Assembly: GCA_010093705.1 (NCBI GenBank)
Contig: MU006103.1
Location: forward strand, 310,001-374,000
Reading direction: 5' to 3'
Length of the DNA: 64,000 bases
Source of the DNA: Patellaria atrata CBS 101060
Taxonomy: Eukaryota; Ascomycota; Dothideomycetes; Patellariales; Patellariaceae
The notes below the pieces were generated by a model that saw only the letters and a list, made by a program, of their open reading frames with translations, searched no databases and was not told where the DNA came from. Numbering within the stretch: the stretch's first letter is position 1; the number at the start of each line of letters is the position of its first letter. Below are positions 4,582-42,314 of the stretch, piece by piece. Made by a program: the position numbers and the translations under genes.

Positions 4582-4691
4582 NNNNNNNNNNNNNNNNNNN
4601 NNNNNNNNNNNNNNNNNNNNNNNNNNNNNNNNNNNNNNNNNNNNNNNNNNNNNNNNNNNNNNNNNNNNNNNNNNNNNNNNNNNNNNNNNNN
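4582..4691. other. Assembly gap (110 N)
   Basis: A run of N is followed at once by nine G. True length and content are unknown. The G run suggests a low-complexity stretch that the assembler could not cross. Confidence 0.99.
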
Positions 4692-35467: not shown

Positions 35468-36740
35468 ATGGCAACTACAAAGGTCTTCTCTCTCGAGGGA
35501 AAGGGATTGAAGCTGGACACAGCAGGAGACATCGAGCCGCATATTGCAGCCTTGAAAGCTAATGACGATGTGGAGGAAATACACTTTCTAGGAAATACTC
35601 TCGGTATCGGGGCATGCGAAGCTCTCGCGGAAGTTCTTAAAACGAAAAAGAAACTTCGAGTATGTCCACCATCCGTTTTCACCTGTCTATCCTTACTAAC
35701 CTATCTAGCACGCCAACTTTGCCGATATCTTCACAGCCCGCCTCCTCTCCGAAATTCCTCTTGCTCTACAAGCCCTCGTCGACGCCCTCGTAACTTTACC
35801 GGATCTAAACACTGTCAATTTGTCTGACAACGCTTTCGGTCTCAACACATCAGCACCTCTCGTCTCCTTCCTCTCCCAGCATGTTCCGCTCCAACACCTT
35901 ATCCTCAACAACAACGGTCTAGGTCCCGAGGCCGGCACACTTGTTGCCGATGCTCTGGTCTCTCTTGCCGCGAAGAAGATTGCTGCTGGGCCCAATACAC
36001 CAAAGTTAGAGACTGTTATCTGCGGACGCAATAGGCTAGAGAACGGCTCAATGAAGGCGTGGGCAAGAGCTTATGCGGCACATAATGGTGTTAAGGAGAT
36101 CAAAATGGTGCAGAACGGTATCAGACAGGAGGGCATCACGCACCTTCTCCAGGAAGGCCTAAATCACGCGAAGGACATTCAAGTGCTGGATCTTCAGGAT
36201 AACACGTTCACCGCAACAGGTGCTCGTGCCCTCGCGGACGTCGTCCCAACATGGCCTAAGCTCAAGGAACTGGGTGTCGGAGATTGTCTGTTGGGCGCAC
36301 GGGGTGGAGTCATGCTGGGTAATGCCTTAGAAAAGGGAGAAAATCCAGAGCTTGAAGTTTTAAGACTTCAGTACAACGATATCGATATCAAGGGTGTGAA
36401 AGGAATTGCTGCTGGCCTATCTAAAGTACCAAAACTCCGCAGAGTAGAACTCAATGGGAACAAATTCAGCGAGGAGGACGATGCAGTGGACAAGATCAGG
36501 GATACCTTAGTCGAACGTCGAGACGATGCGGGAATCTCAGCGGAGGATGGGGAGGAGACTTGGGGACTCGATGAGCTGGATGAATTGGATGATGAGAGTG
36601 ATGATGAGGATAAAGAGGAGGAAGACGAGAAGGAGACAGTGCTGAAGAGGGCAGATGAAGCTGAGGATGAGAAGGTCGCACAGAAACAGGATAAGGGTGT
36701 CGATGAGTTGGCCAATCTTTTGGGGAAGACGTCGGTATAG
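35468..36740 (+). CDS. RNA1: Ran GTPase-activating protein 1
   Basis: Two exons, 35468-35659 and 35709-36740, separated by a 49-nt intron, give 407 residues. RanGAP stimulates GTP hydrolysis by Ran in the cytoplasm and so sets the direction of nuclear transport. The body is a ring of leucine-rich repeats (VEEIHFLGNTLG, LNTVNLSDNAFG, LQHLILNNNGLG, VICGRNRLENGS, IQVLDLQDNTF, LEVLRLQYNDID, LRRVELNGNKF). The GRNRLENGS segment contains the conserved catalytic-type Arg. The C-terminus is the expected long acidic tail (DELDELDDESDDEDKEEEDEKE) and a short final helix. The gene looks complete. Confidence 0.94.
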
Positions 36741-37347: not shown

Positions 37348-37596
37348 CTAACAGACTCCTCCAGTAATCTTACAGATGGCTTTTGAGATTGCGTCCCAGA
37401 AGCCCCGTTTCACGAGTATTTCCCCGTTTGTGTCCAGCTCTTCAATATCGGCGGCATAGGTAGTATAAGTAACGGGCTCACTGTCGATATTGCTGGAGAC
37501 AGAAACGCTGTCGCCAGTTGAGGCAAATTGAAGACGGGGGCCAGCAAGGACGCCGGCGGCTGTTGAGAGAATTATGATGGTGTTGGTGAGACGCAT
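37348..37596 (-). CDS. Secreted Kex2-type peptide precursor, 82 aa
   Basis: A complete intronless frame encodes a classic prepropeptide. Residues 1-18 (MRLTNTIIILSTAAGVLA) are a signal peptide with an Ala-type cleavage site. Residues 19-62 form a Ser/Thr/Glu/Asp-rich pro-region. Lys63-Arg64 is a Kex2 site, and everything after it is one 18-residue peptide, GFWDAISKAICKITGGVC. That peptide is amphipathic, slightly basic, and has two cysteines in a C-x6-C spacing at the very C-terminus, which would close a small disulfide loop. Only one copy is present, so it does not look like the multi-repeat alpha-type pheromone precursors. Possible roles are antimicrobial, signalling or effector. I know no named family; the function is unknown. 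Confidence 0.7.
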   Translation of the reverse strand: MRLTNTIIILSTAAGVLAGPRLQFASTGDSVSVSSNIDSEPVTYTTYAADIEELDTNGEILVKRGFWDAISKAICKITGGVC

Positions 37597-38252
37597 TGTG
37601 GATGATTGTTAAGAAATATTGTGTGATATTTGATTTTCTGCTTTTTCTTTTAGAGAAGATGCGGCTCAGGGGGGGTGGGAGGGCGCTAAGAGAAATATAA
37701 AGGGCCATGTTGTGTGACAAAGAGTGAGTTCAATGTAATTTAGGATGAAAACAACAAAGAAGAGAGGTTAAAGGATAACCATAAAGAACCGATACTTGTC
37801 CTAGCATACAAAGAAGCATTGTCTCGGTGGCCACAAGCTCTTATGTAAGTCTATAGTGTCCCGTCTTATAGAGCACGTACACAACGAGTATGGATAAGAT
37901 GTATAACAACCGACAAGTGCGAAACCTGACTGTGAGAGGATCTATAATCAATGATTGTACATGAGCCTTGGTTAAAATACGACAGTAGTCTTAGTATAAA
38001 TCTTTCGATACCGATATGTAATAATGGATTCTTGTGTGCGGGTTAGCATGAAATTGTGCGGATGACTTTCATTTATGAGAGACGGATAGTTCGTAGATTG
38101 CGAGAGGACAGCAATCAAGTTTTGAATCATATCTATGCTAAACATTATCCAGTACGACTATACATGAATGTTAATTAGAATGTCGATAATTGACGTGGGA
38201 TTGAAGGCGGTTCAGGATTTTAAGGGGTTAGCTAATCAGAGCTACGCAGCAG
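37597..38252. other. Upstream region of the peptide gene, AT-rich, 0.66 kb
   Basis: Contains the promoter of the minus-strand peptide gene and AT-rich spacer up to the MITE. No coding sequence is seen. Confidence 0.55.
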
Positions 38253-38489
38253 CAGGAGTCGACAAAATTCGTGGGACAGACCATTGCACCACCAAAACTC
38301 ACTGATTAAACCACAAAATCCCATAGAATACTAGAATTAAAATAGTTAATATTATTCTCTTTTTACTGAATTATATCCTAGATAGATTTTATTAATTCAA
38401 TAATTAGTTTTCGTGGTGTTATTATGGTTTTTTATACCTTCACATAAGTTAGTATAGTAAAAGCGTCCCACGAATTTTGTTGACCCCTG
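38253..38489. mobile_element. MITE-like non-autonomous DNA transposon, 237 bp
   Basis: The ends are inverted repeats of 25 bp (38253-38277 and 38465-38489) with 23 matches. The core ACAAAATTCGTGGGAC is perfect over 16 bp. Both ends start CAGG. The 187-bp interior is AT-rich and non-coding. No target-site duplication is plain at the margins, so the true ends may lie a few bases further out. CAGG termini and small size suggest a Tc1/mariner- or pogo-derived MITE, but the superfamily is not settled. It sits about 190 bp upstream of the next gene. Confidence 0.65.
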
Positions 38490-38678
38490 GTGAAGCCGGT
38501 GAGCTACCGTGATAAAGCCAGTGCCAAGACTAAATTTTCTAGAGCGCATCCCCGTCATCCTACACGTTCTCTCCCTAGTTTTATCAACTATCAAAAGATA
38601 TTCAATTCACACAATCCATCATCATACCTTCCTCTCAACTCTTTGCATCACGTTGTTCTCTAGAATTATCTCTTCATC

Positions 38679-40327: not shown

Positions 40328-42314
40328 ATGAGCTTTCTAGGAGGAGCAGAATGCTCCACGGCTGGCAACCCACTCAGCCAATTCACCAAGCATGTTCAGG
40401 ATGACAAAACGTTACAGAGAGACCGGCTGGCCGGTCGCAGTCCTGGCGGTATGCAAGAGAGCGTTAGATCACAGAATATGAGTCCAGCTCAGGATCAGGT
40501 CATTTTTCTAGCACCCTAGTACCATGTCATAGTAGCTAATGAATTGGTGTTAGATGATGGACCAGTTCCTACAACAGTCCGGCCAGTTACCACAAGGACC
40601 AGCGTCACCATTCGCCATGGAACAGATGAGACGAGAATTAGAAAGAGCACAACATAGCGGGTCTCCGAACTGGGCTGCGGAGTTCGAACCTGGGGTTGAA
40701 GGTCCCGCGAGGATGGAAACCGCTTTCCGACAGATGCCCCAGAACGCCAAAGCTGGATTCACTCCCGAACAGTTTGCTATGTTCCAACGTAACCAACAAG
40801 AAGCGCGCAGTGGTGCTGCGAGCCCACAAACTATGAGTGGGTACCAACGTCCCATGAACTACAGTATGGGCATGGGTGGTATGGGTGTGGGATACGGAAT
40901 GGGTATGGGAATGATGCAGCGACCATATAGCGATATTAGTTTTCAGCAGCCCATGCAAGCAGAAGGCAAAGGCAAAGGACGTATGGTCGAACTCGACGAT
41001 AAAGACTGGGAGGCACAATTCAAGGAGCTCGAATCAACTGAAAAGGACGCCGAGAAGTTAGACGAGGAAGCGAATAAGGCGATGGAAGCAGAGCTCGAGG
41101 ATATAGACAGGTCAGTCCCTTCTGAGAGAGATCAATTCGGGAATTTTGAGGATATTTGGAGGAGCATTCAAGCTGAAACGGCCAATGCTAGACATCTCGT
41201 CGAAGAAGAACATATGCTGGATCCCATGCATATGGGCGATCTTGGGGATTGGGAAGGCTTCGATGGCATCAGAACGCACAGCGATTTTCAAGACCCCCAG
41301 ATAGGTGACTATTTATTCGAAGAACAGAACCTATTCAGTGACATCACAAATCCATTCGAGGAAGGAATGAAGATAATGCGGGAGGGCGGTAACCTCTCCT
41401 TAGCAGCTCTTGCCTTTGAGGCTGCGGTTCAAAAAGACCCGAATCATGTAGAAGCATGGACAAAACTTGGTGCTGCCCAGGCGCAAAATGAAAAGGAATC
41501 TCCGGCGATACGGGCTTTGGAACAATCACTCAAGATCGACCCCTCTAATCTCGAAGCACTTATGGGTCTTGCAGTATCGTATACGAACGAAGGCTACGAT
41601 AGCACCGCTTACCGAACCCTTGAGCGTTGGGTAGCTACCAAATACCCCCAACTAATTACAACACCTCTCTCCTCTCCAGAAGAGGTCGGTTTCACAGATC
41701 GACATGCTCTACACGAGAAAGTGACCAACCTCTTCATCGAAGCTGCGCAACTCTCACCCTCCGGCGAGCATATGGATCCAGACGTCCAAGTCGGGCTCGG
41801 TGTTCTCTTTTATGGAGCGGAACAGTATGATAAAGCCGTCGATTGTTTTGGTGCCGCGCTCGCATCGACGGAATCAGGTACCACAAACCAACAAGACCAA
41901 ATACATCTTCTTTGGAACAGATTAGGGGCCACTCTCGCAAATTCGGGTCGTTCAGAAGAAGCGATAGATGCATATGAACGCGCTCTTTCTATCCGTCCTA
42001 ACTTCGTCCGCGCCCGTTATAACCTTGGTGTTTCGTGTATCAACATCGGTTGCTTTGCTGAAGCGGCGCAACATTTACTCGGGGCTCTCGCCATGCACAA
42101 AGTTGTAGAGCGAGAAGGCCGAGAACGCGCAAAGGAGGTTGTTGGCGATGGTGTCAATGATGCAGAGCTGGATAGGATTGTTCAGCAGAATCAAAGCACT
42201 AATTTGTTCGATACTTTGCGAAGGGTCTTTAGCCAGATGGGTAGGAGGGATCTATCCGAATTAGTAGGTCCCGATATGGATATTAACAGATTTAGAGGGG
42301 AGTTTGAGTTTTAG
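40328..42314 (+). CDS. PEX5: Peroxisomal targeting signal 1 receptor
   Basis: Two exons, 40328-40498 and 40554-42314, give 643 residues; the 55-nt intron has an unusual GTCATT donor. Pex5 carries PTS1 cargo from cytosol into peroxisomes and is recycled by ubiquitination. The N-terminus MSFLGGAECSTAGNPLSQF holds the conserved Cys9 used for mono-ubiquitin export. Aromatic WxxxF/Y-type motifs for Pex13/Pex14 follow (NWAAEF near 97-101, DWEAQF near 205). A Met/Gly-rich stretch (MGMGGMGVGYGMGMGMM) lies between. The C-terminal half is the TPR cargo-binding domain (NLSLAALAFEAAVQKDPNHVEAW, AIRALEQSLKIDPSNLEAL, VGLGVLFYGAEQYDKAVDCF, LWNRLGATLANSGRSEEAI, VRARYNLGVSCINIGCFAEA). The gene looks complete. 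Confidence 0.95.

Follow-up and report, generated by a model that had tools for sequence, protein, structure and literature searches.

Does a short open reading frame (ORF) in the genome of the ascomycete Patellaria atrata encode the precursor of a single secreted peptide, and what might such a peptide do? The earlier note on this DNA had described an ORF with a signal-like start, an acidic pro-region, a single Lys-Arg pair and a tail that runs to the stop codon, but it named no strand. Within the analysed stretch of 64,000 nucleotides (hereafter the window), exactly this organisation is found on the minus strand, where an intact ORF of 82 amino acids extends from an ATG at 37596 to a TAG at 37348; read in that frame, the plus strand of 37348-37596 is interrupted by 3 stops. 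The translation reads MRLTNTIIILSTAAGVLA / GPRLQFASTGDSVSVSSNIDSEPVTYTTYAADIEELDTNGEILV / KR / GFWDAISKAICKITGGVC, with one KR and one core, the 18-residue tail running right up to the TAG. The parts of the precursor are as follows.

37348..37596, minus strand: precursor ORF, 82 amino acids, from translation; matches only itself in the 28.3-Mb genome
37543..37596, minus strand: signal-peptide-like residues 1-18; rule-based, mean Kyte-Doolittle value of the h-region 2.32
37411..37542, minus strand: acidic pro-region, residues 19-62, net charge -7
37405..37410, minus strand: Lys63-Arg64, presumed Kex2 site; KR in the sequence, KEX2 gene elsewhere in the genome
37351..37404, minus strand: putative mature peptide GFWDAISKAICKITGGVC, residues 65-82, with a presumed Cys75-Cys82 ring

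Residue 2 is Arg, and residues 7-16 form the best 10-residue hydrophobic stretch (the mean of 2.32 listed above), followed by V-L-A. Cleavage of the signal peptide would accordingly be placed after residue 18 (VLA), the signal call being that of a crude home-made rule and not of SignalP. There are two Cys residues in the whole precursor, and the net charge is -7 in the pro-region and +1 in the core.

We determined how often this layout arises by chance in the window plus twenty 10-kb stretches, together 264 kb of the genome. The layout was defined as the signal rule plus a KR, followed by a tail whose Cys residues are even in number (2 or more). Of 1044 ORFs of 40-160 amino acids, the signal rule retained 77; a KR tail was present in 7 of these, and an even number of Cys in 1 of the 7, the precursor ORF itself. 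In 12 second-order Markov shuffles the means at the same steps were 1178, 48, 3.0 and 0.25, with 3 full-layout ORFs in total. Since the shuffles give 0.25 such ORFs per 264 kb, some tens would be expected in 28 Mb, and the layout alone is therefore not significant genome-wide. The architecture on its own is weak evidence for a gene. Additional information comes from the start region and from codon use.

37597..37606, minus strand: start context ATCATCCACA ahead of the ATG, with a score reached by 0.74% of 4574 ATGs
37695..37700, minus strand: TATA-like element (TTATAT) about 100 nt ahead of the start codon; read directly

Together with the ATG, the start context reads CATCCACAATG, and a pyrimidine-rich stretch was read directly in the upstream region. 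Among other short ORFs, the codon score of this ORF was reached by 5.6% of the 301 that lie clear of long ORFs (a set that includes some true exons) and by 6.2% of the 130 that overlap one, as compared to 69.5% of 239 coding pieces. A synonymous-only score separated these three groups less well (7.3%, 14.6% and 20.5%, respectively). If layout, context and codon figures were independent, their product would be about 1e-4 per 264 kb, but it should be noted that these criteria were picked after seeing the ORF. Since the start context ranks in the top 0.74% and the codon use is gene-like, we consider it likely that the precursor ORF represents a real gene, with the same reservation on how the criteria were chosen.

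This leaves a minority possibility that the ORF arose by chance, or that the true transcript is spliced such that the ring is absent. This view is supported by the expectation of about 0.25 ORFs of such layout per 264 kb of shuffled DNA, the lack of homologues, a codon score that falls only within the lower third of coding pieces, and a possible splice donor near the end of the ORF.

37368..37373, minus strand: candidate splice donor (GTAAGA) that overlaps the codon of Cys75; splicing here would eliminate the ring

Combined with the nearest acceptor, the donor at 37373 would define a 47-nt intron, and the protein would end in ...GFWDAISKAI; however, this shortest candidate has no [CT]TNA[CT] branch site. 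Candidate introns of 76 and 107 nt do have a branch site, TTTAC, the former giving the same protein end as the 47-nt version and the latter a tail that is longer and different. At 37481 lies a second donor, which could yield a 42-nt intron, by which the pro-region is shortened and the core is kept, or a 44-nt intron, by which the frame is shifted and the core is lost. Against the chance or spliced alternative stand, besides the missing branch site, the start context among the top 0.74% of ATGs and a codon score that exceeds that of about 94% of the other short ORFs. The ORF is flanked by a RanGAP (RNA1) gene on the plus strand, which ends at 36740 and is convergent with it, and by an RRM gene, also on the plus strand, which starts near 38.7 kb and is divergent from it. 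Any much larger spliced gene would be confined to the two intergenic stretches.

Near neighbours of the ORF are ALG6/8, RanGAP, RRM and TPR protein genes. The TPR protein, identified by domain search, comprises 586 amino acids (40554-42314) and, judged by its layout, is probably the peroxisomal receptor PEX5. The intergenic region on the promoter side of the ORF contains an inverted repeat (38250-38492) with 28-nt arms that are 89% complementary and 187 nt between them; it is MITE-like, A+T-rich by eye, and the only copy in a whole-genome DNA search. Elsewhere in the window, positions 4582-4691 are 110 N in a row.

A search of the precursor against 5.8 billion proteins, from sources that include nr and UniRef, returned 2 word-sharing candidates, none with an E-value of 1 or below, and the C-terminal half gave no candidate in the same database. 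There was no match to the precursor in Pfam, and the matches in the PDB were noise (best E-values 0.33 with the complete precursor as query and 1.1 with its last 20 residues). In its own 28.3-Mb genome the precursor matched only itself and is thus single-copy. A match on a viral contig (38% over 55 residues; E-value relative to candidate stretches only) was discarded, as it belongs to the portal protein of a phage (Pfam E 7e-28), in which YTTYAADI matches by chance. The neighbouring RanGAP, used as a coverage control, matched 3006 proteins, and many named Dothideomycetes were among the best 120 of these 3006; within the same 120, identity was highest at 71% in an alignment covering 81% of the query and reached 68% across its entire length. 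In a tree of 30 rows (the query and 29 of the 120 listed matches, of which 24 had named organisms and 5 were metagenome rows from the top ten), RanGAP fell among Dothideomycetes sequences on a long branch (0.31), and no sister to it was supported. Because close kin are missing from the collections searched and the precursor is short and fast-changing, the absence of precursor homologues is weak evidence. The string CKITGGVC was absent from the literature searched, and no fungal helix-loop peptide of such kind was among the literature matches listed.

The proposal of a Kex2-type precursor with a single C-terminal amphipathic core agrees with the layout, the charges and the helical moment, and also with the presence of a KEX2-like gene in the genome (an open frame of 882 codons with a P_proprotein match at E 5e-29 and subtilase catalytic segments read by eye). 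The first 13 core residues have a hydrophobic moment of 0.59, compared to a shuffle mean of 0.26 (p-value of 0.0025). Single-sequence AlphaFold placed a helix at residues 64-78 with a pLDDT of about 60 in this block, within a model that is poor overall (mean pLDDT 50, pTM 0.34). As an amphipathic helical antimicrobial peptide the core thus combines a high moment with a charge of only +1 and a helix modelled at low confidence. A net charge of +1 is low for an antimicrobial peptide.

Our favoured, though tentative, reading is that the precursor is the product of a real, lineage-specific small gene. With its signal-like start, this product would enter the secretory pathway, where the acidic pro-region may hold the core inactive. 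Kex2 would cut after Lys63-Arg64, as the KR pair and the KEX2 gene suggest, and in the released 18-mer the two Cys residues would close an eight-residue ring behind the amphipathic helix, the latter suggested by the computed moment and by the low-confidence model. By analogy with helix-loop defence peptides, the 18-mer would most likely act on cell membranes, either of competitors or of a host. The intact ORF, its signal-peptide-like start, the KR, the two-Cys tail and the position of the acidic pro-region ahead of a weakly cationic core are in favour of this reading, as are the start context and codon use, the KEX2-like gene, the helical moment and the likeness of both core ends to printed ranatuerin-2/palustrin-2 peptides (see below); the lack of a relative in the collections searched, the rate at which shuffled DNA yields the layout, the charge of only +1, the donor in the Cys75 codon, the poor AlphaFold model and the post hoc nature of the frog comparison are against it. 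Its main functional rivals would be signalling and effector roles.

Comparison with known fungal systems shows both likenesses and differences. Plectasin-like fungal defensins are secreted as prepropeptides with a Kex2-type release site, and the same is predicted here. Fungal CS-alpha-beta defensins such as plectasin have six or more Cys residues in the defensin pattern and need several disulphides, whereas the precursor has two Cys only and no Pfam match. Ustiloxin-type RiPP clusters have repeated cores and UstYa/DUF3328 neighbours. Here there is a single core, and no UstYa/DUF3328 domain was found in 10 nearby ORFs scanned between 30.1 and 45.6 kb. Candidalysin is an amphipathic helix. It is derived from Ece1 and, according to the excerpts of PMC5784256 and PMC12153327, is a Kex2-released fungal peptide that acts on membranes. 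Compared by description, the present precursor differs from it in having one core, of 18 instead of 31 residues, and a possible disulphide. A large survey of Kex2-released fungal peptides used a pipeline that, in the part of PMC6339444 consulted, demands at least three repeats, so that single-core peptides would be missed.

It had been suggested that the tail resembles frog brevinin-1, by convergence and not by descent. We aligned the core to seven peptides from frogs, using the sequences given in PMC7073735, PMC9774241 and PMC10812557 and 2000 shuffles each. As regards brevinin-1, the general resemblance of a helix followed by a Cys-closed C-terminal loop stands, but the brevinin-1 ring is C-x5-C and that of the core C-x6-C, and the brevinin-1-like peptide printed in PMC9774241 scored 11.0, which was equalled by 300 of the 2000 shuffles. 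Three of the seven peptides compared were not convincing, namely this one, the nigrocin-like (76/2000) and the brevinin-2 peptide (90/2000). In contrast, three peptides of the ranatuerin-2/palustrin-2 type scored 42.5, 43.5 and 46.5, with shuffle maxima of 32-36 and no shuffle in 2000 reaching the score of any of them, and a fourth scored 27.0, equalled by 4 of 2000. With the Cys residues fixed, the first three were still at 0/2000 and the fourth at 18/2000. On these shuffle scores, brevinin-1 was replaced by ranatuerin-2/palustrin-2 as the nearest analogue. It should be noted that the labels nigrocin-like and brevinin-1-like are our own, as is the family assignment of one of the three top scorers, and that the frog peptides were chosen post hoc, having been found via the loop string, so that the scores are a lead to convergence and not a measured significance.

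Ranatuerin-2/palustrin-2 peptides are released from an acidic propiece, as is predicted for the core. In the excerpted examples, they share with the core a Gly-[Phe/Ile/Leu]-[Trp/Met] N-terminus, often with Asp, a predicted helix, and CKITGG or CKIGGG within the C-terminal loop. The core differs from them in length (18 residues versus 29-31 in the examples compared), in its fungal origin and in the lack of detectable precursor homology. Ranid Rana-box peptides share a conserved prepro-region, and the precursor has no scoring homologue in the protein database search. The Rana box is described in excerpts of PMC10812557 and PMC9774241 as a disulphide ring of six or seven residues at the C-terminus (C-x4-C or C-x5-C); the C-x6-C ring of the core is an octapeptide, one residue longer than the seven-residue form. 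The frog-peptide resemblance is probably convergent, and the earlier preference for convergence over descent holds in so far as no descent from frog genes is detectable in the protein database searches. It is hardly credible that a frog-skin peptide gene was acquired by transfer or contamination, even though both ends of the core resemble the printed ranid peptides: the gene lies inside a 679-kb contig, it adjoins a RanGAP gene whose closest named relatives among the best 120 of 3006 matches are fungal, a database drawing on nr and UniRef, among other sources, yielded no scoring homologue of its precursor, and its ring is one residue longer than in the frog examples.

The earlier note had also set the precursor apart from multi-copy alpha-pheromone and ustiloxin-type precursors. 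This is correct with respect to repeats, as the precursor has a single core only; it overlooked, however, that a C-x6-C ring with a middle Gly is also the ring of two-Cys alpha-pheromones. Examples in the excerpts are the Xylona pheromone RFCHLPGQGCSK (PMC6339444) and the Helotiaceae pheromone CKYVGQGCW (PMC10569646), the latter having C-K-x-x-G-x-x-C in common with the core ring. Thus, CKITGGVC compares with CHLPGQGC and CKYVGQGC, the Gly lying four residues past the first Cys in each. We regard it as rather unlikely, but worth weighing, that the peptide is a divergent alpha-type pheromone or self-signal, whose ring would dock on a receptor, either STE2 or a different one, with an extension formed by its N-terminal part. 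Like the excerpted two-Cys alpha-pheromones of the Pezizomycotina, the precursor has a predicted signal peptide, a presumed Kex2-type site and the C-x3-G-x2-C spacing, and divergent single-core forms exist in nine Erysiphaceae (excerpts of PMC10569646). The genome moreover encodes an STE2 receptor and two DPAP/STE13-like proteins, including the following.

G000:C21:299013-299825: STE2 receptor gene (L031), E 4.6e-56; putatively intact, 7 in-frame stops taken by eye as introns
G000:C15:290229-291359: DPAP/STE13-like gene (L039), about 19 kb before the window start

On the other hand, the STE2 frame reads through the 7 stops just mentioned, and the ring likeness rests on few positions. According to the excerpts of PMC10569646, the vast majority of repeats in Leotiomycetes carry a GQ or PG turn dipeptide, and alpha-pheromones have a repeated core preceded by an STE13 dipeptide (XA/XP). 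The core has GG at the GQ position, no Trp in the ring region and a single copy, with GF directly after the KR in place of an STE13 dipeptide; it is also longer (18 residues versus 9-14) and has a predicted helical N-terminal part.

An additional argument for the pheromone alternative is that no alpha-pheromone precursor was recognised in the genome, in a search that was incomplete. Matches to pheromone patterns were compared with a reversed control: WCxxxG[QE]xC gave 7 versus 3, [FY]CxxxGQxC 4 versus 3, CxxxGQxCW 2 versus 2, a Pleosporales motif 0 versus 2, and a stricter WC form 0 versus 0. In-frame reading of all 13 matches to the first three patterns (7 + 4 + 2) revealed no secreted KR precursor. 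A pair that looked promising at first was rejected: WCSTGGEVC between dibasic pairs (L008) is an out-of-frame reading within a 1008-codon open frame, and CSLKGQSCW before a stop (L036) ends an 18-codon open stretch, in a piece of DNA with no plausible gene to be seen. The looser CxxxGQxC gave 104 matches versus 71 in the reversed control, and among the matches listed, five single ones, picked by eye, and one cluster were read, with no pheromone precursor among them. The sole cluster among those listed (L041, G000:C8:1057700-1058500) was rejected as a pheromone. It encodes a secreted-looking Cys-rich protein in which CGWAGQLCCASGQQC and CCSSGQYC mimic the pheromone motif. As the CxxxGQxC matches were read only in part, a canonical alpha-pheromone gene may have been missed, which counts against the pheromone alternative. 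A more elaborate version, which we consider quite improbable, is that a lineage that lost its canonical repeat precursor joined the two-Cys alpha-pheromone ring to a membrane-seeking amphipathic helix, giving an STE2 ligand or self-signal whose form is convergent on the frog helix-loop peptides.

Small, secreted, orphan, single-copy and Cys-containing proteins fit the usual profile of fungal effectors. The precursor is small, apparently secreted, orphan, single-copy and Cys-containing, and its product could thus act on a plant, animal or microbial host by means other than membranes. This is unlikely in our view, given that its near neighbours are housekeeping genes and that it has two Cys only. 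We return, as tentatively as before, to a Kex2-released, ring-closed, amphipathic and lineage-specific peptide that would act on membranes. If real, it would be an exactly defined 18-mer, accessible to synthesis, from an ascomycete lineage whose close relatives have not been sampled, and with it one may test whether fungi came on their own to the helix-loop design of frog skin peptides or put a pheromone ring to a new use.
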